64,000 bases of DNA from an uncultured Isoptericola sp. (GTDB taxonomy: Bacteria > Actinomycetota > Actinomycetes > Actinomycetales > Cellulomonadaceae): positions 744,001-808,000 of the forward strand of contig CANMFP010000001.1 in the NCBI GenBank assembly GCA_947497265.1, given 5' to 3'. The notes beneath the pieces are model-generated. The model was not told the origin of the DNA. It made no database searches and worked only from the letters and a program-made list of their open reading frames with translations. Shown one piece after another: positions 5,610 to 56,724 of the stretch (its first letter is position 1; each line of letters begins with the position of its first letter). The position numbers and the translations under genes are program-made.

Positions 5610-7295
5610 ATGCACACCGCTCCCCGTGACCTGACGCGCCCTCCCCGGCTCTCCCGCAAGGCTCTGCGGATCACGCCGCTCGGCGGCGTCGGCGAGATCG
5701 GCCGCAACATGACGGTCTTCGAGCAGTCCGGGCGACTCCTCGTCGTCGACTGCGGCGTCCTCTTCCCCGAGGACCACCAGCCCGGCGTCGACGTGATCCT
5801 CCCCGACTTCGCGAGCATCACCGACCGGCTCGACGACATCGAGGCGATCGTCCTCACGCACGGGCACGAGGACCACATCGGTGGCGTGCCGTACCTGCTG
5901 AAGCTCCGTCCGGACATCCCCCTCGTCGGGTCCGAGCTGACGCTGGCGTTCATCGCCGAGAAGCTCAAGGAGCACGGCATCAAGCCAGTCCTGAAGCGGG
6001 TCGAGGCGACCGACCGGTACTCCACCGGCCCGTTCGACCTCGAGTTCATCGCCGTGAACCACTCGATCCCGGACGGTCTCGCCGTCGTCATCCGCACCGC
6101 CGCGGGCTCCGTGCTGCACACCGGAGACTTCCGGATGGACCAGTTCCCGCTCGACGGGCGGCTGACCGACCTGCGGGCCTTCGGCCGCATCGGCGAGGAG
6201 GGCCTCGACCTGCTGCTGGTCGACTCCACCAACGCCGAGGTCCCTGGCTTCTCGATCTCCGAGAGCGACCTGGTCCCGGCGATCGAACAGGTCTTCCGCA
6301 CCACCCCGGGCCGGGTGATCGTCTCCAGCTTCGCCAGTCACGTCCACCGGATCCAGCAGGTGCTGGACGCCTCCCACGCGGTCGGCCGCAAGGTGTCCTT
6401 CGTGGGGCGCTCGATGGTCCGCAACATGCGGATCGCGCGCGAGCTCGGTTACCTCACCGTCCCGCGCGGCCTGGTGATCGACTACAAGAAGACGCGTGGC
6501 ATGGCGCCCGAGCAGGTGACGCTGATCTGCACCGGGTCCCAGGGCGAGCCGTTGGCCGCGCTGTCCCGCATGGCCAACGAGTCGCACGAGGTCCGCATCA
6601 GCGAGGGCGACACCGTGCTGCTGGCCAGCTCGCTGATCCCGGGCAACGAGAACGCGATCTACGGGATCATCAACAAGCTGACGGACCTCGGCGCGAACGT
6701 CGTGCACAAGGGCAACGCCCGCGTGCACGTCTCGGGCCACGCCAGCGCCGGCGAGCTCGTCTACTGCTACAACATCCTCAAGCCGCGCAACGTCATGCCG
6801 GTCCACGGCGAGCCCAAGCACCTGCACGCCAACGGTGCGCTCGCCGAGCGCACCGGCGTCGACCCGGAGAAGGTGCTGATCACCCGTGACGGCGTGGTCG
6901 TCGACCTCGTCGACGGCACCGCGAAGATCGTCGGCCAGGTCCAGGCGGACCTCGTGTTCGTCGACGGGCAGACGGTGGGCCACGCGACCGAGGACACCCT
7001 CGCGGAGCGTCGCCAGCTCAGCGCCGGCGGCGTGCTGACCGTGCTCGTGCTGCTGAAGCCGGGCACGACGGAGCTCGCCGAGCCCCCGGAGTACCTGCAC
7101 CGCGGGTTCGTCCAGAGCCCGGAGAGCCTCGAGGCGGCCACCAAGGCCCTGACGAAGGCGCTCGCCGACGCCGCGGAGCGCGGCATCACCGAGGGCGAGG
7201 AGCTCGAGAAGCGTCTGGCGGGTGCCGTCGGGCGGTCGCTGGCCCGCACCTCCCGCCGCGAGCCGGTCGTCATCGCCCTGGTGCTCGACGCCTGA
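5610..7295 (+). CDS. rnj: Ribonuclease J
   Basis: Metallo-beta-lactamase/beta-CASP exo- and endoribonuclease for mRNA decay and rRNA maturation. The 561-residue length is usual. The metal-binding motif HGHEDHIGG is near residue 88, further ligands include HTGDFRMD and the beta-CASP motif VHVSGHAS, and a C-terminal domain closes the protein. ATG 5610 is chosen because a strong GGGGAG precedes it and the family N-terminus (LRITPLGGVGEIGRNM) follows shortly. The upstream SulP stop is adjacent, so co-transcription is likely. A large inverted repeat lies just after the stop. Confidence 0.96.
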   Translation: MHTAPRDLTRPPRLSRKALRITPLGGVGEIGRNMTVFEQSGRLLVVDCGVLFPEDHQPGVDVILPDFASITDRLDDIEAIVLTHGHEDHIGGVPYLLKLRPDIPLVGSELTLAFIAEKLKEHGIKPVLKRVEATDRYSTGPFDLEFIAVNHSIPDGLAVVIRTAAGSVLHTGDFRMDQFPLDGRLTDLRAFGRIGEEGLDLLLVDSTNAEVPGFSISESDLVPAIEQVFRTTPGRVIVSSFASHVHRIQQVLDASHAVGRKVSFVGRSMVRNMRIARELGYLTVPRGLVIDYKKTRGMAPEQVTLICTGSQGEPLAALSRMANESHEVRISEGDTVLLASSLIPGNENAIYGIINKLTDLGANVVHKGNARVHVSGHASAGELVYCYNILKPRNVMPVHGEPKHLHANGALAERTGVDPEKVLITRDGVVVDLVDGTAKIVGQVQADLVFVDGQTVGHATEDTLAERRQLSAGGVLTVLVLLKPGTTELAEPPEYLHRGFVQSPESLEAATKALTKALADAAERGITEGEELEKRLAGAVGRSLARTSRREPVVIALVLDA

Positions 7296-45790: not shown

Positions 45791-47221
45791 TGGCTCAACG
45801 CAGATGAGGGTGTAGCCGGGGTCTGAAGCCGCCGGCTTCGAGGAGTGATCGGGCGATGTAGTGGGTCAGGTTGCGAAAGCCCAGGGCGGAGCCTCGGAGG
45901 TGTTCGAGTCGGCCGTTGATCGCCTCCGTGGGCCCGTTGCTCGTGCCGGGCAGGTCGAAGAACGCCAGCACGTCCGCGGCGCGCTTGGTCAACATCCGCC
46001 CGAGCGTGACGAGCTCGGTCAGGGCCGCCGGAACGGCGCGGGCCACCGAGTCGATCACCGCGGTCATGAGAGCACGGCCCTGGGCGCGGTCGGGGTGGCG
46101 GTAGGCGGTGATCATGCGCTGGTAGATGCCCCAGGTCGCCTCGACCTCGACGTGCTCCTCGATCGCGAACAGGGCCTCGATCCTGGTCGTCTGCTTGTCG
46201 GTGAGCAGGTCGGCGCCGGTGTGCAGGGTCCGTCGTGCGCGGTAGAGCGGATCCTTGGCGCGGCCGCGGTGGCCGTGCAAGTCGAGTTGGACTCGGCGGC
46301 GGCAGCGGTCCAGGGCATCACCGGCCAAGCGCACGACGTGGAACGGGTCCATCACCGCGGTCGCGTCGGGCAGCTCGTCGGCAGTGGCGGTCTTGAACCC
46401 GGTGAAGCCGTCCATCGCGACGACCTCCACCTGATCTCGCCAGGTCTTCGGGCGGGTGGCGAGCCACTGCTTGAAGGCCTGCTTGGAGCGCCCCTCGACC
46501 ATGTCGAGCAACCGGGCGGATCCGGTGCCGTCGCGGATCGGGGTCAGGTCGATGACCACGGTGACGTACTTCTCGCCGCGCCGTGTGTGGCGCCACACGT
46601 GCTCGTCGACTCCGATGACGGCCACGCCGTCGAAGCGGGCCTCGTCATCGATCAGCACCCGCCGACCTTCGGCCAGGACAGCGTCGTTGGCGGTGTGCCA
46701 TGCCACCACGAGGGCCTCGGCCACCCGCGCGACCGTCAGATGCTGGGTGACCAGACCCACCAGGGCCCAGCGCACCGCCGCCCGCGAGAGCTTCGCCCGC
46801 GGCTCGGCCGCCCTCGACGTGTCTTGGCGCCACACCCGCCCGCAGCTCTCGCAGCGGTAGCGGCGCACCCGCACCAGCAGCGTCGTCGGCCGCCACCCGA
46901 ACGGTTCGTGCGCCAGCCGCCGAGACACCGTGCCCCGCGGCGTGCCCTCGGCCCCGCACCCGCGGCAGAACGCATCATCGGCGCGCGCCACGACCCGGCA
47001 GCACAGCGTCGCCCGGTCGGGCTCCAGATGCTGCCCGACCACGACGAGCCCGAGCTCGTCCAGGCGCGCGAAGGTCGCCAGGTCAGGGGCAGCGAAGGTA
47101 AGTTCAGGCACGTCGAGGTCTTCCAGATGGTGAGCGTGAGAACTTCCATCCTGGGGGACCTCGACCCATCCCCGGAACCGGCTCAGCCAGCCAGCGCTAC
47201 ACCCTCATCTGCGTTGAGCCA
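45791..47221 (-). mobile_element. ISL3-family insertion sequence
   Basis: A complete element of about 1.43 kb bounded by perfect 26-bp terminal inverted repeats (45791-45816 and 47196-47221; outer end GGCTCAACGCAGATG). It holds one transposase gene whose stop lies in the left repeat. The 8 bases outside each end differ (CCCATACT and AGGTTAGT), so the 8-bp direct repeat expected for ISL3 is missing. Confidence 0.9.
45795..47111 (-). CDS. ISL3-family transposase
   Basis: A 438-residue DDE transposase. The N-terminal zinc finger (CRGCGAEG and CESCGRVW) and helix-turn-helix are followed by the catalytic core: VIGVDEHVWRH (first Asp), VVAMDGFTGF and VMDPFHVVRLA (second Asp), and a C-terminal GTSNGPTEAINGRLEHLR (Glu). 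The length is standard for ISL3 and the reading frame is intact, so it may be active. Confidence 0.95.
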   Translation of the reverse strand: MPELTFAAPDLATFARLDELGLVVVGQHLEPDRATLCCRVVARADDAFCRGCGAEGTPRGTVSRRLAHEPFGWRPTTLLVRVRRYRCESCGRVWRQDTSRAAEPRAKLSRAAVRWALVGLVTQHLTVARVAEALVVAWHTANDAVLAEGRRVLIDDEARFDGVAVIGVDEHVWRHTRRGEKYVTVVIDLTPIRDGTGSARLLDMVEGRSKQAFKQWLATRPKTWRDQVEVVAMDGFTGFKTATADELPDATAVMDPFHVVRLAGDALDRCRRRVQLDLHGHRGRAKDPLYRARRTLHTGADLLTDKQTTRIEALFAIEEHVEVEATWGIYQRMITAYRHPDRAQGRALMTAVIDSVARAVPAALTELVTLGRMLTKRAADVLAFFDLPGTSNGPTEAINGRLEHLRGSALGFRNLTHYIARSLLEAGGFRPRLHPHLR

Positions 47222-47266: not shown

Positions 47267-48796
47267 ATGGAGGCATTCTTGGACCCGGATTTCCCGCTCT
47301 GGCTGCGGGCTACACACCTGCTCAACTTTGTCCTAATGGGGATTGTGCTGCGCAGCGGGTGGGAAATTCTCGCCTCGCTGCCCCGCCTGTGGTGGCGCAA
47401 TGACTCCAAGCCGGGCACTGAGTGGATCAAGTTCACCCGCCGGGAGCTGCCGAAGGAGGAGGGCGTCTACACCTCCCTCATGGACGAGCGGTCCGCCAGC
47501 CCGCTGCTGACCTTGCCGGGGAAGAAGAACATCGGCCTGGGGCGGCACTGGCACGGACTGGGAGTGACGCTGTGGTTGATCAACGGCCTGCTTTACGTCG
47601 TCCTGCTGTTCGGCACCGGCCTGTGGCGGCGGATCGTGCCGACCTCGTGGGATGTGTTCCCCGAGGCGTGGGAATCCATGCGGATCTACCTCGGCTTCGG
47701 CGTGCCCTCGATCGAGCATTTCCAGCCCTACGACGCGCTGCAGATGCTCACCTACACCGGCGTCGTCTTCATCTTGGCGCCGTTGCTGATCCTGACAGGT
47801 ATCGCGATGTCCCCGGCCGTGCGTTCGCGCTTCCCCTGGTACCTGAAGCTGTGGGGTGGGCACCAGGGCGCTCGTTCGCTGCACTTCATCGGCATGGTCC
47901 TGATGAGCATTTTCATCGTGATGCACATCGGTCTGGTGTTCTTGGTCCACCCCGAGTACAACCTGCCGCACATGGTCTTCGGTGTCACCGACACCGCCCG
48001 ATACGCGCAGGCCTTCACCATCGCGATCGCCACGATCGTCGTCGTTATCGGCTTGTGGATCGCTCTGAGCTACCTCACGCTGGCCGACCGCCCGCGCTCC
48101 CAGCGCGTGCTCGTGGCGCTGACTGAGCCGATCCGCAAGGTCACCCTGAACTGGATGAAGCCCCGCATGGGACGCCAGAGTACTTACACCGAGAAGGACA
48201 TCTCGGAGTTCCACTGGACCAACGGGCTCCCGCCGACCAAGGACGAGTCCACGGAGTGGCTCGCCCACCGGGACAGCGGCTTCCGTGACTGGCGCCTCGA
48301 GCTCGGTGGTGAGCTGAGCGGTAAGACGCTGCAGCTGAGCCTGGGGGACTTGCGTCAGCTCCCGAAGACCGAGTACATCGCGGTCCACACCTGCATGCAG
48401 GGCTGGTCGGCCACCTCCAAATGGGCCGGCGTCCGGCTCCGTGACCTCCTCGAGGTCCTCGGACCTCCCCCGGAGGGTGCCAACTACGTGATGATCACCT
48501 CCCACGGCCTGGCCCAGGAGATGTGGGACCACCGGCCGCGGGAACCGTTCTACGCGGTGCTGGACCTCGACACGGTCGCCGAGGACGACACGATCCTGGC
48601 GTACGAGCGCAACGGGCACCCGTTGGAGGTGCATCTGGGCGCGCCGCTGCGGCTGCGGGTGGAGTCGAACCATGGGTACAAGATGGTCAAGTGGATCAAG
48701 TCCATCGAGTGGATCACCGACTACGCCGCGTACGGTGACGGTCGTGGCGGCACCCGTGAGGACGCCGCGATGCAGGCGTTCAACGGCCGGATCTGA
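47267..48796 (+). CDS. Membrane cytochrome b561-like / molybdopterin oxidoreductase fusion
   Basis: A 509-residue fusion. Residues about 1-290 form a diheme-type cytochrome-b membrane domain (helices at about 10-35, 95-115, 155-180, 205-230, 245-275; histidines in LRATHLLNFVLMG, GRHWHGLG, SLHFIGMVLM, VMHIG). Residues about 330-500 are a sulfite-oxidase/YedY-like Moco domain with the Mo ligand near Cys376 in VHTCMQGWSATSKWAGV and the end segment ESNHGYKMVKWIKSIEW. No Tat signal is seen. It starts 46 bases after the IS, so its own promoter may be displaced. It is probably a redox enzyme coupled to quinones. Confidence 0.85.
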   Translation: MEAFLDPDFPLWLRATHLLNFVLMGIVLRSGWEILASLPRLWWRNDSKPGTEWIKFTRRELPKEEGVYTSLMDERSASPLLTLPGKKNIGLGRHWHGLGVTLWLINGLLYVVLLFGTGLWRRIVPTSWDVFPEAWESMRIYLGFGVPSIEHFQPYDALQMLTYTGVVFILAPLLILTGIAMSPAVRSRFPWYLKLWGGHQGARSLHFIGMVLMSIFIVMHIGLVFLVHPEYNLPHMVFGVTDTARYAQAFTIAIATIVVVIGLWIALSYLTLADRPRSQRVLVALTEPIRKVTLNWMKPRMGRQSTYTEKDISEFHWTNGLPPTKDESTEWLAHRDSGFRDWRLELGGELSGKTLQLSLGDLRQLPKTEYIAVHTCMQGWSATSKWAGVRLRDLLEVLGPPPEGANYVMITSHGLAQEMWDHRPREPFYAVLDLDTVAEDDTILAYERNGHPLEVHLGAPLRLRVESNHGYKMVKWIKSIEWITDYAAYGDGRGGTREDAAMQAFNGRI

Positions 48797-48808
48797 CAGG
48801 AGCAGGGC

Positions 48809-49030
48809 ATGATCAGCACTATCTACACCGTCGCCGGCATGACCACAGCCGAGGATGCGCGGGCCATCAAGGACAGGCTCTATCGCGTGGCAGGTATCGG
48901 TGCCGTCGCCACCGAGATCATTCCCGACGGCGAAGCGCGCATCATCCTCAAGCACAAGGACGACGTCGAGCTGAACCGCTCGGCCATCGAGGCAGCCGTG
49001 CAGGAGGCGGGCGAATACACGCTCGCCTGA
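48809..49030 (+). CDS. HMA-fold small protein lacking the CxxC metal motif
   Basis: A 73-residue protein with the beta-alpha-beta-beta-alpha-beta pattern of heavy-metal-associated domains. It has YTVAGMTTAEDARAIKDRL where GMTCxxC is expected, then GIGAVATEIIPDGEARIILKH. Both metal cysteines are replaced (Thr/Asp), so it cannot bind metal in the usual way. It follows the oxidoreductase gene by 12 bases with AGGAG before the ATG. Confidence 0.75.
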   Translation: MISTIYTVAGMTTAEDARAIKDRLYRVAGIGAVATEIIPDGEARIILKHKDDVELNRSAIEAAVQEAGEYTLA

Positions 49031-49050
49031 CCATTACGGCTACCAATAAT

Positions 49051-49077
49051 GAGACGAAGCACGTGCTTATTCGTCTC
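49051..49077. promoter_or_regulatory. Inverted repeat GAGACGAA-N11-TTCGTCTC before Crp/Fnr gene
   Basis: Perfect 8-bp arms with an inner AGCACGTGCT palindrome, 21 bases after the HMA-like stop and 33 before the Crp/Fnr start. It could be an autoregulatory operator or a terminator of the first unit. Confidence 0.45.
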
Positions 49078-49109
49078 GGCGCATCTAGCATCACTTTCAG
49101 GAGGCAATC

Positions 49110-49931
49110 GTGAGCAGCGAACCCGGCTCCGCCGCATCGCACGGTGCATCCTCCCCGGTCAATTCGGCTACCGGCGCACCTGGCCGACGACGAGTCCCGC
49201 TGCGCTCAACCTGCGCCCAGCCCCATCACTGTCCATTGCCGGTACGCATGAAGGTTCTCGGCCAGGTGCCGCTCTTCGCCGGTCTGTCCCACGAGGATCT
49301 TGTCGGTATCGACCACCGCATGGTCTCGCTGTCCTGGGCTGAGGACGACCCGCTCTACACAGCCGGCGACGTGGCCGAACATCTCTACGTCATGGCAGCC
49401 GGGCGCGCCAAGGTCTCCCGCCCGACCCCGAACGGCCAGGACGTCGTCGTCGATCTCCTGGCCCCTGGCGACCTCTTCGGAGGCATGCACACCCTGGGCC
49501 AGCCCACCTACCCCGAAACCGTTCGCGCCCTGACCACCACCTGCGCGTTACGCATCGACACACGCGCTTTCCGCGATGTCATGACGCAACACCCCGAGGT
49601 CGCCCTACGGGTGGTGGACGACGTCACCGCGCTGCTAGCGCAAGCGCGTGCGGACGTCACCGCGCAATCCACCGCCACCGTCGCCCAGCGGGTAGCGACC
49701 ACGCTGTTGCGCCTAGCCGAGAAGTTCGGCCAGGACAGCTCCTCCGGTGCCACATTGATCCAGTTGCCGCTGTCTCGCACTGACCTGGCCGGCATGACCG
49801 GCTCGACACCGGAGTCCGTCTCCCGGGTAATGAGCCAGCTCCGCAAGGACGGCATCATCGACTCCGGCCGCAGATGGACCGCCATCCTGGACGGCGACCG
49901 TCTGCTCGCCACCGTGGCCGCCAGTGCCTGA
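49110..49931 (+). CDS. Crp/Fnr-family regulator with N-terminal cysteines
   Basis: A 273-residue regulator. An extended N-terminus carries TCAQPHHCPLP, two cysteines just before the cyclic-nucleotide-binding fold (PLFAGLSHEDL, AGDVAEHLYVMAAGRAKV, LLAPGDLFGG). The C-terminal winged helix includes LPLSRTDLAGMTGSTPESVSRVMSQL. The cysteines suggest an Fe-S, heme or thiol sensor rather than cAMP binding. GTG 49110 has AGGAGG upstream. It is the likely activator of two promoters in the island. Confidence 0.9.
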   Translation: MSSEPGSAASHGASSPVNSATGAPGRRRVPLRSTCAQPHHCPLPVRMKVLGQVPLFAGLSHEDLVGIDHRMVSLSWAEDDPLYTAGDVAEHLYVMAAGRAKVSRPTPNGQDVVVDLLAPGDLFGGMHTLGQPTYPETVRALTTTCALRIDTRAFRDVMTQHPEVALRVVDDVTALLAQARADVTAQSTATVAQRVATTLLRLAEKFGQDSSSGATLIQLPLSRTDLAGMTGSTPESVSRVMSQLRKDGIIDSGRRWTAILDGDRLLATVAASA

Positions 49932-49956
49932 GGGGCGAGGACTCTCTCACGTCTGC

Positions 49957-50016
49957 TGCGGTTGATTGATGCACGTCATGGTTCGGTTCCTAGCCCGCTC
50001 GTAACGTCGTAGTCAG
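49957..50016 (+). promoter_or_regulatory. Crp-type box and promoter of the HMA/copZ-like gene (site A)
   Basis: TGCGGTTGATTGATGC at 49957-49972, continuing into CGTCATGGTT, then TAACGTCGTAGTCAGCACCC from 50002. The dyad TGAT-N4-GTCA centres at 49972.5. If TAACGT is the -10 box, the site falls near -41.5, the class II activator position. The same arrangement recurs at 51402. Confidence 0.65.
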
Positions 50017-50061
50017 CACCCAAGAAGGGTGAGACCTCGTCAGAGAAGGAAGGAACACACC

Positions 50062-50301
50062 ATGAGCACCACCGCTCCCACCACCACCCACACGACCCTG
50101 CGCGCCGAAGGCTTCTCCTGCCCCTCCTGCGTGGCGAAGATCGAGAAGCGTGTCGGACGCCTGGACGGCGTCAGCGCCGTGAAGGTCCAGTTCGCCTCGG
50201 CACGCATCGAGGTCGACCACGACCCGGCCAAGGCCAGCGTCGAGGACCTGATCGCCGCTGTGGGCAAGGCCGGGTACGTCGCCAAGCCTGCCGCGTTCTG
50301 A
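50062..50301 (+). CDS. HMA-domain metal chaperone (CopZ-like)
   Basis: A 79-residue heavy-metal-associated protein with the binding motif CPSC in AEGFSCPSCVAKIEKRVG, then VSAVKVQFASARIEVDHDP and a helix AVGKAGYVAK. It is soluble and would hand Cu, Zn or another soft metal to a P-type ATPase. The ATPase in this island lacks its own HMA domain, so this is a fitting partner. The promoter carries the shared Crp-type box. Confidence 0.88.
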   Translation: MSTTAPTTTHTTLRAEGFSCPSCVAKIEKRVGRLDGVSAVKVQFASARIEVDHDPAKASVEDLIAAVGKAGYVAKPAAF

Positions 50302-50327
50302 CGCCCGCGGCGCCAAGGAGAAGGACA

Positions 50328-50569
50328 GTGAGCGTCATGGCACAGGCGGCGCACCTGCAGCTGCGCCTGGGCGAGTTTTTCTGCCCCTCGTGCGCCACCG
50401 ACATCAACCGGCACCTGAAGCGTCTTCCGGGGTGCAGGCCGTGCACATCGATCTGCACTCGCACCGGGTTGACGTCGACTACGACCCCCGACGCTTGGAC
50501 GTCGAGGACATCCTGGTGACCGTCGGCGGCGCCGGCGTTACCGCAAGCGTTATCTCGGAGGACAGCTAG
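50328..50569 (+). pseudogene. Second HMA-domain protein, frameshifted
   Basis: From GTG 50328 the frame gives RLGEFFCPSCATDINRHLKRLPG, then breaks at CCGGGG (50427-50432). One added G would restore VQAVHIDLHSHRVDVDYDP and a normal HMA end (ILVTVGGAGVTASVISEDS) at stop 50567-50569. It is 26 bases downstream of the first HMA gene with AAGGA before the start. A real mutation or sequence error is possible. Confidence 0.75.
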
Positions 50570-50714
50570 GACCCGCCTCCACTAGGGCGACCAGGGACGT
50601 CGACCGGTGCCCAGACCAAGCGCGAGCGCACTGCCCGGGCGTCATCCCGCCACCCATCAGGGCCGCACCGGGCCGCCGGGCCCGTCAATGATCAGCGGAA
50701 GCCTGCCCGCTGCA

Positions 50715-50728
50715 TTCTCACGTGTGAA
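50715..50728. promoter_or_regulatory. Near-palindrome TTCTCACGTGTGAA
   Basis: A 14-bp element with one mismatched pair, 43 bases before the small membrane protein start. Candidate operator; no matching regulator is known. Confidence 0.35.
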
Positions 50729-50770
50729 CCGCTGGTAGACCCACGTCCCAAGAACTCAGGAGAGATTGCT

Positions 50771-51190
50771 ATGAGCGTCAAGCTTCACCATGTCCCGCCG
50801 CGCCTGGCGAGCGGGGCCTTCATATTGAACACCGGAATCACTAAGCGGTCATTGGACGTCGACGGGGCAACGGGGCTGCGGGACCAGGCCGCCAACGCGT
50901 TCCCGTTCTTGAAGAAGATGGACCCGGTCCGCTTCGGGAAGGCGTTGTCGACCTTCGAGATCGCTCTGGGCACGGCGCTACTAGCCCCGATGGTACCCAC
51001 CCGGGTGGCCGCGGCCGGCCTAAGTGGATTCTCGGCCGCATTGATGGCCGTGTACCTCAAGACGCCAGGGTTCACCCGTGATGACGGAATCCGTCCAGCG
51101 CCGGCTGGCATGGGGATCGCTCGGGACGTCTTCATGCTCGGTAGCGGTCTGGGCCTGATGGTGGAGGAACTGGCAACCAGGCGAACCTGA
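50771..51190 (+). CDS. Small membrane protein of the island
   Basis: A 139-residue protein with two or three hydrophobic segments (IALGTALLAPMVPTRVAAAGL, FSAALMAVYL, VFMLGSGLGLMVEEL) after an amphipathic start. It recalls DoxX-like membrane proteins, but I cannot place it in a family. AGGAG precedes the ATG. It lies between the HMA genes and the P-type ATPase and has its own terminator. Confidence 0.65.
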   Translation: MSVKLHHVPPRLASGAFILNTGITKRSLDVDGATGLRDQAANAFPFLKKMDPVRFGKALSTFEIALGTALLAPMVPTRVAAAGLSGFSAALMAVYLKTPGFTRDDGIRPAPAGMGIARDVFMLGSGLGLMVEELATRRT

Positions 51191-51315
51191 CGGGGCCGTC
51201 CCGCCATGCGCGTGACACCCGGCCCCACGGGCCCCGCGGACTGGGGTGTGGTCATGGGCGCCCGCGGGCCGAGGCTACGTGGCTCGTCCGGTCGCATTCT
51301 GAGCCGGACCAGCTA

Positions 51316-51348
51316 AGCGTCACCGCCGATCAACTCGGCGGTGACGCT
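51316..51348 (+). terminator. Strong intrinsic terminator hairpin
   Basis: Perfect 14-bp stem (AGCGTCACCGCCGA / TCGGCGGTGACGCT) with a 5-base loop, followed by CTTCATT. It closes the unit that ends with the small membrane protein. Confidence 0.75.
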
Positions 51349-51401
51349 CTTCATTGCGCCAGCACGCTAGAGCAGCCCCGGCGGCGGTGCACGGATGGGT
51401 G

Positions 51402-51461
51402 TGCGGTTGATTGACGCCGGTCATGGTTGCCCGGTGCCGATCTTCATAACGTCGTTGTCAG
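51402..51461 (+). promoter_or_regulatory. Crp-type box and promoter of the P-type ATPase (site B)
   Basis: TGCGGTTGATTGACGCC, then GGTCATGGTT and TAACGTCGTTGTCAGCACCC from 51447. The dyad TGAC-N4-GTCA is perfect here. The distance from box start to TAACGTCGT is 45 bases, exactly as at site A, while the bases between them differ. Confidence 0.65.
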
Positions 51462-51505
51462 CACCCCGAACTGGGGTTGGACAGCTACAGGAAGGTCGAA
51501 CAGCT

Positions 51506-53446
51506 ATGAACAAGCTGCAGCAGTGGTGGTACGGCAGGTGGGCGATCCCAGTGGTCTCCGGGGCGCTGATCCTCATCTCGTTCTTCGTGGCCCGCGGCCT
51601 CGGTTCCGATGCGTGGAGCAACGCCTTCATGGTGGCCGCCGCCGTGGTCGCGGGTACCCCGATCGTGACCAAGGCAGCCCGGGCGCTCATGGCCCGGGTC
51701 ATCGGCATCGACCTGCTGGTCTCGGTGGCCGCGATCGGCGCGGTGATCATCGGGGAGTACTGGGAGGCCGCCGCGGTGACCTTCCTCTTCGCCATCGGGC
51801 ACGCCCTGGAGTCCGCAACGCTGAACAAGACCCGCTCGGCACTGGCCGAGCTGGTGGCCGTGGCCCCAGACGTGGCCGTGGTCATGCGCGACGGCGTGCA
51901 GGTGGAGGTGCCCGCTGCGAGCGTGGCCATGGGCGAGATCGTCCTGGTCAAGAACGGCGCTAAGGTCCCGGTGGACGGCGAGGTCGTGGCCGGCACCGGC
52001 GCCCTGGACGAGGCCTCCATCACCGGGGAGTCCATCCCCGTGGAGAAGTCCAAGGGCGACCACGTCTTCGCCGGAACCGTCGCCAAGGGTGGGTTCCTCC
52101 AGGTGCTCGCCACCGGCATCGGCGCCGACACCACGCTGGCCCGCATCATCCACCGCGTCGAAGACGCCCAGGACGCCAAGGCCAAGACCGCCCAGTTCAT
52201 GGACCGGTTCTCCGCCTGGTACACCCCGGCCATCATGGTCCTGGCCCTCGTGGTCGGACTCATCACCGGTGACGTCGTGCTCGGGCTGACCCTGCTGGTC
52301 ATCGGCTGCCCTGGCGCGCTGGTCATCTCCATCCCGGTCTCCATCGTCGCCGGCATCGGCCGGGCCGCCAAGGACGGCATCCTCATCAAGGGTGGGGAGT
52401 ACCTGGAGACCTCCGGCAAGATCACCGCCGTCGCGGTGGACAAGACCGGCACCCTGACCAAGGGCCGCCCGCACCTGACCGACGTCGTCGTCCTGGCCCC
52501 AGCCATGGATCGCGCCCAGGTGCTGACCTGGGCAGCCCGGGCCGAGGCCGGCTCCGAGCACCCGCTCGCCCGACCCATCCTGGAGGCAGCAGCCGCGGAG
52601 GGGCTGGCCACGTCGGGGCTGCCCGAGGTCACCGAGCCCGTGCCTGGCAAGGGCATCACTGCCACCATCGGCGGGCGCCGGGTCCTCATCGGCAACGTGG
52701 CGCTGCTGGAGCAGTACGGCGTCGCGGACACTGTTGGCGCCGGGCAGGCCGCTGAGGAGCTCGCCGCAGCGGGCAGGACGGCGATGATCGTGGCCGTGGA
52801 GGATGCGGTGGCTGGTGTGGTCGCGGTGGCTGATGAGGTCCGTCCCGACGCGGCGCAGATGGTCGCCCGTCTGCACGACGCCGGGGTGAAGAAGGTGGTC
52901 ATGCTCACCGGTGACGCCCCGCTGGTGGCGAAGGCAGTTGGTGCGGCGACCGGGGTCGATGAGGTCCGCGCCGGCCTGCTGCCCGAGGACAAGCTCGACG
53001 CGGTCGCGGACCTGCAGCGTCAAGGTCACGTGGTGGCCATGGTCGGCGACGGCGTCAACGACGCCCCCGCCCTGGCAACGGCCAACATCGGCGTGGCCAT
53101 GGGCGCCGCCGGCTCTGCCGTCGCCGTGGAGACTGCGGACATCGCCCTCATGGGCGACAACCTGCTCAAGCTCCCCGAGGCCGTCGGCCTGGCCCGGCGC
53201 ACCGTGAACAACATGCGCCAGAACATCACCATCGCCCTGGTCACCGTGGCCGCCCTGCTGGCCGGCGTCCTCCTGGGCGGGGTGACTATGGCCATCGGGA
53301 TGCTCGTCCACGAAGCTTCGGTCCTGGTCGTCATTATCAACGCCATGCGCCTGCTGCGCCGCCACCAGGACACCACCAGCGCCGTGGCGACAGCGCCGGC
53401 GCAGAGCACCACCACCGAGGCACAGGCAATGGCCCGCCGCCCGTAA
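51506..53446 (+). CDS. P1B-type heavy-metal ATPase with CPG membrane motif
   Basis: A 646-residue metal-pumping ATPase. Actuator TGES is at about 173-176, phosphorylation DKTGT at Asp312, SEHPLA for nucleotide binding, and hinge GDGVND near 514-519. The membrane metal motif is Cys268-Pro269-Gly270 (IGCPGALVIS) instead of CPC, SPC or TPC, and the last helices hold LVHEASVLVVIINAMRLL. No N-terminal HMA domain. It is served by the Crp-type promoter and possibly by the separate HMA proteins. The metal is not predictable. Confidence 0.92.
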   Translation: MNKLQQWWYGRWAIPVVSGALILISFFVARGLGSDAWSNAFMVAAAVVAGTPIVTKAARALMARVIGIDLLVSVAAIGAVIIGEYWEAAAVTFLFAIGHALESATLNKTRSALAELVAVAPDVAVVMRDGVQVEVPAASVAMGEIVLVKNGAKVPVDGEVVAGTGALDEASITGESIPVEKSKGDHVFAGTVAKGGFLQVLATGIGADTTLARIIHRVEDAQDAKAKTAQFMDRFSAWYTPAIMVLALVVGLITGDVVLGLTLLVIGCPGALVISIPVSIVAGIGRAAKDGILIKGGEYLETSGKITAVAVDKTGTLTKGRPHLTDVVVLAPAMDRAQVLTWAARAEAGSEHPLARPILEAAAAEGLATSGLPEVTEPVPGKGITATIGGRRVLIGNVALLEQYGVADTVGAGQAAEELAAAGRTAMIVAVEDAVAGVVAVADEVRPDAAQMVARLHDAGVKKVVMLTGDAPLVAKAVGAATGVDEVRAGLLPEDKLDAVADLQRQGHVVAMVGDGVNDAPALATANIGVAMGAAGSAVAVETADIALMGDNLLKLPEAVGLARRTVNNMRQNITIALVTVAALLAGVLLGGVTMAIGMLVHEASVLVVIINAMRLLRRHQDTTSAVATAPAQSTTTEAQAMARRP

Positions 53447-53528
53447 GCAGCACCGGACCAGGACACCTCAACGCCAGCCGTCCCGGCCCGCCGCTGGAAA
53501 CCAGCACTACCTCAGGAGGAAACACCAG

Positions 53529-53957
53529 GTGAGCACCGAAGAACACTTCACCATCGAAGGCAACATCGAGCACTTCACCATCGCCGACGTCGCCCAGGAC
53601 AACCCCGACTTCCGCCGGGTGCTATGGACCGGTCAGCACGCCCAGATCGTCATCATGACCATTCCCCCGGGTAGTGAGATCGGGGATGAGGTCCACCAGA
53701 ACACCGACCAGATCCTCACCTTCATCAGCGGAACCGGTCAGGCAGACCTCAACGGCCATACCCACCCGATCGAGGCCGGTGACCAGTGCGCCATCCCAGC
53801 CGGCACCCGGCACAACTTCCGCAACACCGGTGCTGAGCCACTCGTGCTCTACACCGTTTATGCCCCGCCCGAGCACGCCGCCGACGGTGCCTACCCGACC
53901 AAGAACGAGGCCGACGCCGCCGAGGCAGCCGGGCAGGACGAGCCCCCCACCGCCTGA
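53529..53957 (+). CDS. Cupin-domain protein
   Basis: A 142-residue single cupin: GSEIGDEVHQNTDQILTFISG (motif 1 with His and Gln/Glu-type ligands) and GDQCAIPAGTRHNFRN (motif 2 His). It may bind a metal and act on a small molecule or as a sensor. GTG 53529 has AGGAGG upstream. It follows the ATPase by 82 bases and is probably in its operon. Confidence 0.87.
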   Translation: MSTEEHFTIEGNIEHFTIADVAQDNPDFRRVLWTGQHAQIVIMTIPPGSEIGDEVHQNTDQILTFISGTGQADLNGHTHPIEAGDQCAIPAGTRHNFRNTGAEPLVLYTVYAPPEHAADGAYPTKNEADAAEAAGQDEPPTA

Positions 53958-54048
53958 CGAGCACACCAACCACCGGCTGAAGCGGCCGGCCAGGTCAGGG
54001 ACCACACTCGGCTCGTTCAGCGACCAACAAGAAGGAAGAAGCAACCCC

Positions 54049-54963
54049 ATGTCCAAGGTGTACGTATTCAATGACTTCGGTGGCCCGGAGAACCAGCAGC
54101 TGGTCGACCGCCCGGCCCCCCCGCCGGGCCCGGGCGAGCTGGCGGTCAAGGTCCGCGCCGCCGGCGTCAACCCAATCGACCACAAGATCCGCTCCGGAGC
54201 TCTGGGCACCGACCTACCGCTGCCGGCCCCCATGGGTCAGGAGGTCGCCGGCGTCGTCACCACCATCGGCGACGGCGTGGAAGGCTTCGCGGTGGGCGAT
54301 GCGATCCTCGGTCCGGTCGCCCCCGGATACGGGGCCTTTGCCCAGGACACCATCGTGCGGGCCACCGAGGCGGTGGCCAAGCCCGAGGAGATCTCCTTCG
54401 CCGACGCCGCCACCATCCCCGTCGCAGCAGCCACCGCCTACGACGCCACCCACCAGATCGAGCTCGAAGCCGGCCAGACGCTCCTGATCCTCGGCGCCGG
54501 CGGCGGCGTCGGGCTCATGGCCGCCCAGATCGGCCGGGTCCACCAGTTCACCGTCATCGGCATCGCCTCGGAGACCAAGCGCCAAATCGTCGAGTCCACC
54601 GGGGCCACCTTCGTCCCCTCCGGGAAGGGCGTGGCCGACCGTGTGCGCGAGGTCGCCCCCGAGGGATTGGACCTCATCGTCGACCTGGTCGGCGGGGATG
54701 CCCTGCGCCAGGTCGCCGCACTGGCCACCAGCCCCTCGCGCATCATCTCCGCCGCCGACCCCGCGACGGCCACCGAGATCGGCGGCTCCGCCCTCGAGCG
54801 CACCAGCGAGGCCATGGCCAAGATCACCGGGGTCATCGAGTACGGCCTCGTCGACCCCCACGTCACCGCCCGCTACCCCCTCGAACAAGCCGGCGAGGCC
54901 ATCGTCGCAGTCGAGACTGGCCACACCACCGGCAAGACCGTCATCGAGCCCTACAGCGCCTGA
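54049..54963 (+). CDS. Quinone-oxidoreductase-like MDR protein
   Basis: A 304-residue zinc-free medium-chain dehydrogenase/reductase. It has VRAAGVNPIDHKIRSG, Rossmann motif LILGAGGGVGLMAAQI, LDLIVDLVGGDALRQVA, and a C-terminal YPLEQAGEAIVAVETGHTTGK. It would reduce quinones or enones with NADPH, fitting redox stress. It is the last gene before the IS1380 element. Confidence 0.92.
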   Translation: MSKVYVFNDFGGPENQQLVDRPAPPPGPGELAVKVRAAGVNPIDHKIRSGALGTDLPLPAPMGQEVAGVVTTIGDGVEGFAVGDAILGPVAPGYGAFAQDTIVRATEAVAKPEEISFADAATIPVAAATAYDATHQIELEAGQTLLILGAGGGVGLMAAQIGRVHQFTVIGIASETKRQIVESTGATFVPSGKGVADRVREVAPEGLDLIVDLVGGDALRQVAALATSPSRIISAADPATATEIGGSALERTSEAMAKITGVIEYGLVDPHVTARYPLEQAGEAIVAVETGHTTGKTVIEPYSA

Positions 54964-55007: not shown

Positions 55008-56724
55008 GCCTCGGGCTTTCATCGGTGAGGGCGTCCGAGGGGTGACCGGGTAAGAGAAAGGTGCCCCTGACCTGGGAAGATACGGCTTGTCGAGAGTCGT
55101 AGCTGTCCAGGTCGAAGGAGCACCTTTCAGGTGAGGAAGCATACGGGGTTCTATCCCCGGTTGAAGACGGACGTCCGCGCTTCGGGCGCGGTCGGGCAGG
55201 CGGGCGGGGTGCTGCTGACCGAGACGGTCCGAGCCACCGGCCTGGACCGCGAGCTGGCCGCGGTGCTGGCGCCGTGGCGCAAGCCGCTCGCGAGGCATGA
55301 TCCGGGCAAGGTGTTGCTGGATCTGGCGGTCGCGCTGGCTTTGGGCGGGGACTGTCTGGCCGACGTCGGGGTGCTGCGCACCGAGCCGGGCATCTACGGG
55401 CCGGTGGCTTCGGACCCGACGGTCTCGCGCACCATCGCTGCGTTGGCCGCGGATGCGGATGCGGCATTGGCCGCGATCGACGCGGCTCGCGCGCAGGCGC
55501 GCACCCGGGCGTGGCGGCTGGCAAGCGATCAGGCGCCGGACCAGGACGTCGATGCCCGCGAGCCGTTGGTGATCGACACCGACGCCACGCTGGTGACGGC
55601 GCACTCGGACAAGGAGCAGGCCGCGGCGACGTTCAAACGCGGCTACGGGTTCCACCCGTTGTGGGCGTTCATCGACCACGGGGCTGCCGGGACCGGGGAG
55701 CCCGCGGCGGTGCTGCTGCGCCCGGGGAATGCCGGATCGAACACCGCGGCCGACCACATTCGGGTTATCACCTCCGCCCTGGCCCAGCTACCCGACCACC
55801 TGACCGGCAGCGGTGGTCGCACGAGGGCGTCGAAGAAGATCCTGATCCGCGCCGACGGTGCCGGCGGCACCCACGAACTCGTGAACTGGCTGACCAAGCA
55901 GCGGCTGGCCTACAGCGTCGGGTTCACCCTGCCCGAACACACCCCCGAGCTGTATCACCAGATCCCCGAGAAGACCTGGACCCCGGCCTACGACGCCGAC
56001 GGCGAGGCCCGCGACGGGGCGTGGGTCGCCGAGCTCACGAACCTGCTCGACCTCGACGGCTGGCCGAAGGGCATGCGTGTCATCGTGCGCCGCGAGCGAC
56101 CCCACCCCGGCGCACAACTACGGTTCGAGGACGCAGGCGGCTACCGGCTGACCGCGTTCGCCACCAACACTGCCGTTGGCGGGCCCGGCCGCCAGTTGCC
56201 CGATCTCGAGCTGCGCCACCGCCGCCGCGCCCGGGCCGAGGACCGCATCCGCATCGCCAAGGACACCGGCCTGGCGAACCTTCCCCTGCAAGGCTTCGAC
56301 GCCAACCGGATCTGGTGCGCCATCGTCGCCCTTGCGGGCGACCTGACCGCCTGGATGCAGACCCTCGCCCTGACCGACCACGACGCGCGCCGATGGGAAC
56401 CCAAACGCCTACGCCTGCGGCTGTTCACCATCCCGGCGACCCTTGCCCGACGCGCCCGCACCAAGGTGCTGCACCTCGCCCGACACGCGCCCTGGGCCGA
56501 CGTCATCACCGGCGCCCTCGCCCGGCTACGAGGACTCGACCCCGCGCCCGGCTGACCCACGGCTCCGACCGTCCCGACGACCACACGCACGACCCGGAAC
56601 CTGGAACCCCGACCGCCCGGACGACACCGGGCCCGATCATCGCACCAACCTGCAAGAATCACGCCCGAACAACGGCAACGACGCCGTCCCCGGCACCGTC
56701 AGCCAAGGGATGAAAGATCGAGGC
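55008..56724 (+). mobile_element. IS1380-family insertion sequence
   Basis: An element of about 1.7 kb with imperfect terminal inverted repeats (GCCTCGGGCTTTCATC at 55008-55023; GATGAAAGATCGAGGC at 56709-56724). A subterminal repeat GAAAGGTGC / GCACCTTTC lies before the gene. Flanking tetramers are CTGG and CTAG, not identical, so a clean 4-bp target duplication is not seen. It bounds the right end of the island. Confidence 0.82.
55131..56555 (+). CDS. IS1380-family transposase
   Basis: A 474-residue DDE transposase with DPTVSRTIAALAADAD, LVIDTDATLVTAHSDKE (first Asp), KRGYGFHPLWAFIDHG, LIRADGAGGTHELVNW (second Asp), and a C-terminal YRLTAFATNT then NRIWCAIVALAGDLTAWMQ. The length and order match IS1380. 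The frame is intact. Confidence 0.95.
   Translation: MRKHTGFYPRLKTDVRASGAVGQAGGVLLTETVRATGLDRELAAVLAPWRKPLARHDPGKVLLDLAVALALGGDCLADVGVLRTEPGIYGPVASDPTVSRTIAALAADADAALAAIDAARAQARTRAWRLASDQAPDQDVDAREPLVIDTDATLVTAHSDKEQAAATFKRGYGFHPLWAFIDHGAAGTGEPAAVLLRPGNAGSNTAADHIRVITSALAQLPDHLTGSGGRTRASKKILIRADGAGGTHELVNWLTKQRLAYSVGFTLPEHTPELYHQIPEKTWTPAYDADGEARDGAWVAELTNLLDLDGWPKGMRVIVRRERPHPGAQLRFEDAGGYRLTAFATNTAVGGPGRQLPDLELRHRRRARAEDRIRIAKDTGLANLPLQGFDANRIWCAIVALAGDLTAWMQTLALTDHDARRWEPKRLRLRLFTIPATLARRARTKVLHLARHAPWADVITGALARLRGLDPAPG

Follow-up and report, generated by a model that had tools for sequence, protein, structure and literature searches.

A local FNR-type regulator and predicted class II promoters at a metallochaperone and P1B ATPase gene cluster of an uncultured Isoptericola sp.

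Gene cluster and promoter sites

The window, a 64,000-nucleotide stretch of DNA from an uncultured Isoptericola sp., contains a gene cluster (about 47267-54963) in which a regulator of the Crp/Fnr family lies next to genes for a putative metallochaperone and a heavy-metal pump. A cytochrome b561/molybdopterin oxidoreductase fusion (47267) comes first in cluster order and is followed by the regulator, an FNR-type protein of 273 aa (49110-49931, plus strand; Pfam cNMP_binding and HTH_Crp_2) assigned to what is called clade A below. The next gene encodes a CopZ-like HMA-domain metallochaperone of 79 aa with the motif GFSCPSC (50062-50301, plus strand; Pfam HMA 5e-15, TIGR00003). A second HMA-type gene (50328-50570, plus strand) carries a one-base frameshift and an in-frame stop; tblastn matches in relatives are split at the same place in five cluster copies (L004, L010, L067, L072, L073), and the gene is intact in three (L008, L068, L069). 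The following open reading frame encodes a 139-aa protein (50771-51190, plus strand) that is conserved in the relatives' cluster copies, gave no Pfam or NCBIfam match and may, as a guess, be DoxX-like. The P1B-type ATPase (51506-53446, plus strand) is followed on its 3' side by a cupin-domain protein (53529-53957, plus strand; Pfam Cupin_2) and by an NADPH:quinone-oxidoreductase-like protein (54049-54963, plus strand; Pfam ADH_N/ADH_zinc_N_2, TIGR02824). Near-identical segments with the regulator and the cluster occur in several other genera, and also on Cellulosimicrobium and Cellulomonas plasmids, which argues that the cluster has moved recently; loci with such nearly identical cluster segments are L004, L008, L010, L067-L069, L072 and L073. 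The flanking open reading frames (45795-47111, minus strand, and 55131-56555, plus strand) look transposase-like by eye.

The ATPase scores 551 bits against TIGR01525 and, well above cut-off, 492 bits against TIGR01512, and by these profiles falls into the Cd/Zn family. P1B pumps usually carry a CPC motif, the signature of the P1B-2 (ZntA/CadA) group in the metal-binding membrane helix. Here the helix has CPG instead (IGCPGALVISIPV), as do all homologues read except one, in which the motif pattern found nothing.

Two closely similar promoter sites precede the HMA gene and the ATPase gene. Read directly from the window, site 1 begins at 49957 with TGCGGTTGATTGA-TGCAC-GTCATGGTT and continues at 50002 with TAACGTCGTAGTCAGCACCC, and site 2 begins at 51402 with TGCGGTTGATTGA-CGCCG-GTCATGGTT and continues at 51447 with TAACGTCGTTGTCAGCACCC. 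In both, GTCATGGTT lies 18 bases and TAACGT 45 bases from the start of the box, and the downstream block of 20 bases (TAACGTCGT, then A or T, then GTCAGCACCC) has a single mismatch; the bases between the blocks differ. An earlier note on this DNA had described identical blocks at identical spacing at 49957 and 51402, and this description is exact. Site 1 comprises an upstream element, TGCGGTTGA (49957-49965, plus strand; -57 to -49), which is conserved in clade A promoters, an FNR-type dyad, TTGATGCACGTCAT (49966-49979, plus strand), and a putative -10 box, TAACGT (50002-50007, plus strand), at the fixed distance of 22 bp from the dyad, with a predicted +1 at 50014. Site 2 has the same upstream element, TGCGGTTGA (51402-51410, plus strand), with the same conservation, a dyad, TTGACGCCGGTCAT (51411-51424, plus strand), and TAACGT (51447-51452, plus strand), with a predicted +1 at 51459. 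The dyad centres, 49972.5 and 51417.5, both fall at -41.5, a position which, like the +1, rests on TAACGT being taken as a -10 element of the TANNNT type with its T at -12. The predicted leaders measure 48 nt to the ATG at 50062 and 47 nt to the ATG at 51506.

The likeness of the two sites is not a matter of chance: the composite pattern TTGAYN4RTCATGG-N20-TAACGT, with up to three mismatches, is found in the window solely at sites 1 and 2, and shuffled windows yield a mean of 0.01 matches and never two. The 13-mer TGCGGTTGATTGA occurs three times in the whole genome, and TTGAYN4RTCAW-N22-TANNNT has three exact matches in the 3.77 Mb of the genome as opposed to none for a reversed control. The motif scan for which the earlier note had called thus turned up one further exact copy (G000:C7:2498, minus strand), in the same 45-base register upstream of a paralogous HMA gene on contig C7, which holds a second module of Crp/Fnr, HMA and ATPase genes. 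Three sites with one mismatch (C2:313787, C3:271919 and C9:35083) are not counted as regulon members, as they have no other support. In the paralogous module (L003 and L070, G000:C7) a gene that by eye is cytochrome P450-like diverges from the HMA promoter.

Conservation of the operator arrangement

Close copies are by themselves uninformative on constraint, and the conservation tests therefore rest on diverged homologues, sampled in two ways. Among 396 genomes of the order, 25 have an orthologue of the regulator, the identity of most of these orthologues being 40-60%, and nearly all of the regulator-holding loci with the HMA/ATPase operon carry [TAC]TGAY-N4-RTCAW in their HMA or ATPase promoters. 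TANNNT follows the dyad by exactly 22 bp in all 20 non-redundant HMA/ATPase promoters chosen by regulator orthologue alone, and in 36 of 36 once loci found by pattern are added, 16 of which were partly selected by the motif pattern. The second sample consists of 43 ATPase homologues chosen by protein alone (57-100% identical, 23 Micrococcales genera, 39 genomes), and the full site (TTGAY-N4-RTCAW, 22 bp, TANNNT) lies within 700 bp upstream of 42 of them, a count that holds fewer independent cases, several of the 43 operons being near-identical copies, though the genera are spread widely. TANNNT stands at offset 22 from 44 of the 45 core dyads in these upstream regions, and from none at any other offset between 0 and 39. 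No conserved -35 element was detected in the spacer between dyad and -10, where column information across the 36 promoters is near background. A predicted dyad centre at -41.5, a 22-bp spacing kept in 36/36 and 42/43 cases and the lack of a conserved -35 are the features of a class II promoter. The earlier note had placed the inner dyad near -41.5, and the fixed distance in the relatives agrees with this.

Twenty of the 25 genomes with the regulator carry the exact site, compared with 41 of the 371 without it (Fisher p ~8e-14), a co-occurrence that relatedness and near-identical copies inflate. Most of the inspected genomes that bear the site and lack the regulator have a second, related Crp/Fnr protein beside the operon (clade B, 26-32% identical), and the sites adjacent to clade B genes are more symmetrical, for example TTGATCTGCGTCAAGG. 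Close homologues of the ATPase were found by a class-wide search only within the order, a Corynebacterium plasmid excepted. The comparison of genomes establishes the predicted dyad-promoter geometry, its conservation and its association with both the regulator and the pump, and the fixed operator arrangement appears to be a property of the whole pump family in the order.

The conserved unit of the clade A promoters is larger than the dyad. Among 22 non-redundant promoters TGCGG at -57 to -53 hardly varies, with the G and C at -56/-55 present in all 22, and it is absent from the 14 promoters of the symmetrical, clade B type. The element is found both next to divergent upstream genes (as with most orthologues, and with the P450-like gene on C7) and next to a co-directional one (the window); being kept whatever the direction of that gene, it belongs to this promoter. 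As it has no counterpart on the other side of the dyad, symmetrical contact by a dimer is unlikely, and the alpha C-terminal domain of RNA polymerase or a partner protein might, as a guess, be its reader. The "Crp-type" box of the earlier note thus stands as a conserved dyad, and has to be amended in that the dyad is of the FNR type, not the cAMP type, and that the conserved unit extends to TGCGG.

Several further observations were made on these promoters and loci. A C at -14 is present in 33 of the 36 promoters, often within TTC-N-TANNNT; positions -16 to -14 correspond to 49998-50000 and 51443-51445 in the window. In one genome (L142, G348; position 6836) ATPase and promoter are 100% identical to those of the window and a regulator orthologue is undetectable, possibly an orphaned promoter. 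On a Corynebacterium marinum plasmid (L071) a single cluster contains five sites, all with the same distance from dyad to -10, close to the genes for an HMA protein, a small hypothetical protein, the ATPase, a CueP/oxidoreductase and a ZIP-like protein. Elsewhere a clade A regulator lies beside narGHJI (L046), and another is accompanied by a site before norB with a spacing of 21, not 22 (L064, 7331). A more distant Crp/Fnr protein adjoins a site that has the usual spacing and precedes a gene for a hybrid-cluster protein (Prismane; L150, 5963, G093), so that the geometry extends beyond metal pumps.

The regulator and its DNA recognition

The regulator matches the two Pfam profiles of the Crp/Fnr superfamily (PF00027 9e-20, PF13545 8e-20), and its recognition helix, STPESVSR, contains the FNR-type ExxSR that is shared by the aligned orthologues and agrees with the dyad TTGAY-N4-RTCAT. 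The genome encodes three full-length Crp/Fnr proteins, namely the adjacent regulator, its paralogue on C7 and a canonical actinobacterial Crp, and an FNR-type E-x-x-S-R helix is found only in the first two; the canonical Crp has the helix SRETVNK and the cAMP-pocket signature GELSLFDPGPRT. Across the relatives, helices with S-T-x-E (in clade A, S-T-x-E-S-V-S-R) pair with RTCAT in 29 loci, and helices with T-T-x-E or L-T-P-E pair with RTCAA in 14, the one mixed locus being the plasmid cluster that has both. This covariation is confounded by phylogeny, and near-identical copies inflate the association, though its direction is the one that a direct match of protein and operator would predict. We strongly infer from these comparisons that the adjacent regulator binds sites 1 and 2. 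Regulation by the adjacent Crp/Fnr protein, as the earlier note had surmised, is accordingly the favoured reading as far as sequence can tell, given that the spacing is conserved, the site follows the regulator and the helix is of the FNR type.

A cAMP-responsive Crp can be rejected: where the M. tuberculosis Crp has FGEL...PRTSS the regulator has FGGM...TYPET, and the Glu and Arg of the cAMP pocket are absent in the orthologues. The regulator starts at a GTG (49110) preceded by an AGGAGG ribosome-binding site, which gives it the N-terminal extension RRRVPLRSTCAQPHHCP. This extension contains a previously overlooked CxxPHxCP segment (CAQPHHC here). Almost every orthologue read keeps PH-x-C; a main subclade is without the first Cys and has a single N-terminal Cys besides the central one. 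The central residue, at the position of FNR Cys122 (TTTCALRI), is conserved throughout the orthologues. Clade B has an N-terminal Cys of its own (DLCVARVPIFQGL) and a central Cys, and one N-terminal and one central Cys are thus conserved in both clades. A classic Fe-S FNR with four cluster cysteines, of which three are N-terminal and the fourth is Cys122, is rejected on account of this set of two N-terminal cysteines (one in a main subclade) and a central one.

Proposed mechanism, signal and known systems

It is proposed that sites 1 and 2 serve as operators of the local FNR-type activator encoded just upstream (49110-49931). A dimer of the activator would bind TTGAY-N4-RTCAT centred at -41.5 and, as a class II activator, bring RNA polymerase to promoters that have a TANNNT -10 and lack a conserved -35, so that the genes for the HMA protein and the CPG-type pump would be switched on together; the paralogous module elsewhere in the genome has this operator too. 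This assignment, a local FNR-type activator acting at class II promoters of chaperone and pump, is very probably correct on the strength of the sequence comparison, activation being deduced from the position of the dyad.

The signal is a separate question. By analogy with FLP-like and Cmr-like regulators, sensing may depend on a cysteine-based switch formed by the PHxC Cys and the Cys at the Cys122 position and responding to thiol-reactive stress, a soft metal or redox/NO, a reading to which we give a nearly even likelihood. The targets, a chaperone and an ATPase, joined on the C. marinum plasmid by CueP and ZIP-like genes, point to metal or thiol stress. The fullest version, in which a branch of the Crp/Fnr family senses soft metals or thiol stress directly through its N-terminal Cys/His segment and acts as the dedicated activator of a distinct CPG-type P1B efflux ATPase, from an operator that is asymmetric and extended, with TGCGG recognised through an additional contact (a partner protein or the alpha C-terminal domain), is possible but on the whole unlikely.

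In some loci the orthologue has narGHJI or norB in its vicinity and not the ATPase gene, and the signal could for that reason be oxygen or nitric oxide, perceived by an Fe-S cluster, a heme or a nitrosated Cys, with the ATPase supplying metal to exported or respiratory enzymes much as FixI/CcoI does under FixK/FNR. The site of a distant relative before hcp, the FNR-type helix and the Cys at the Cys122 position speak for this reading as well. However, at most three cysteines are conserved as compared with the four cluster ligands of FNR, and one subclade keeps two; the profiles place the ATPase in the Cd/Zn family, and the C. marinum sites are grouped with CueP and ZIP-like genes. An oxygen or NO signal is a credible candidate that we nevertheless hold to be somewhat improbable, and it would replace the signal step only, leaving the promoter architecture intact.

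The adjacent protein could also be a repressor, whose dimer at -41.5 would block the polymerase and be released by a metal or oxidant. Derepression is common among metal-efflux operons, as with ArsR/SmtB and CsoR, and the site overlaps the -35 region. Repressors, though, tolerate variable positions, and an invariant distance of 22 bp between dyad and -10 without a conserved -35 fits an activator that touches the polymerase, which makes repression improbable. Still less probable is the binding of sites 1 and 2 by another regulator, be it an unrelated protein or the canonical Crp of the cAMP type. In G348 and several further genomes the operon stands without a Crp/Fnr gene beside it, and TGCGG may bind another protein, yet site presence tracks the FNR-type regulator, and control by the canonical Crp is rejected on account of its SRETVNK helix, which presumably reads TGTGA. 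That the two sites are alike merely through a recent duplication of a promoter segment without regulatory meaning is hardly credible: the downstream block GTCAGCACCC is indeed common mainly to close relatives, but dyad, spacing and -10 are kept in diverged relatives, at 57-80% ATPase identity and in 23 genera, with spacer bases near random.

The proposed local FNR-type activator sets the cluster apart from the common arrangement. In bacteria the control of metal-efflux pumps commonly lies with ArsR/SmtB, MerR, CsoR or two-component regulators, and the CadA, ZntA and CopA systems under ArsR/SmtB, MerR or CsoR resemble the present one in that chaperone and P1B ATPase are placed under a local regulator; here, however, the regulator is of the Crp/Fnr family and would act at -41.5. 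A whole pump family in an actinobacterial order appears to be tied to FNR-type activators, through a geometry recognisable from sequence alone. Searches of an open-access literature library yielded no account of such a pairing of regulator and pump, nor of P1B ATPases of the CPG type, and the cluster offers a test bed for what a CPG-type ATPase transports. An FNR-type activator also governs a P1B ATPase in the control of fixGHIS/ccoGHIS by FixK/FNR. There the ATPase, FixI/CcoI, is a copper pump with CPC that serves the cbb3 oxidase, whereas the pump described here has CPG, is of the Cd/Zn type by profile, is accompanied by a separate HMA protein and has no oxidase genes adjacent.

With E. coli FNR and its class II promoters the system shares the E-x-x-S-R helix, a dyad similar to TTGAT-N4-ATCAA, its centre at -41.5 and the Cys at the Cys122 position. 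It differs in that the N-terminal cluster cysteines of the regulator are incomplete, the operator is asymmetric (RTCAT) and extended by TGCGG, and the target is a metal pump. In Lactococcus, FlpA/B have been connected with oxidative stress and zinc. The FLP, FlpA and FlpS proteins of the Firmicutes, which are FNR-like, have a comparable arrangement of one N-terminal and one central Cys, the FLP-like type being defined by a dithiol/disulfide switch between the two; the present regulator belongs to another phylum, and has a PHxC segment, a different operator and P1B ATPase operons as targets. Two-Cys FNR-like proteins of Gram-positive bacteria have been described, and the role of an Fe-S cluster in them is disputed (PMC5039431). 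What an FNR-like protein without the full cluster motif senses is a question for this group as a whole, and one for which the cluster is likewise a test bed. Among actinobacterial Crp/Fnr proteins, the Cmr protein of Mycobacterium tuberculosis has two cysteines that form a dithiol-type switch responding to redox and nitrosation, and it resembles the present regulator in being without direct cAMP control and in sensing through two Cys (PMC5499769); it differs in its operator, TGTCAGCGTGCTGACA, and in its targets, the DosR regulon.
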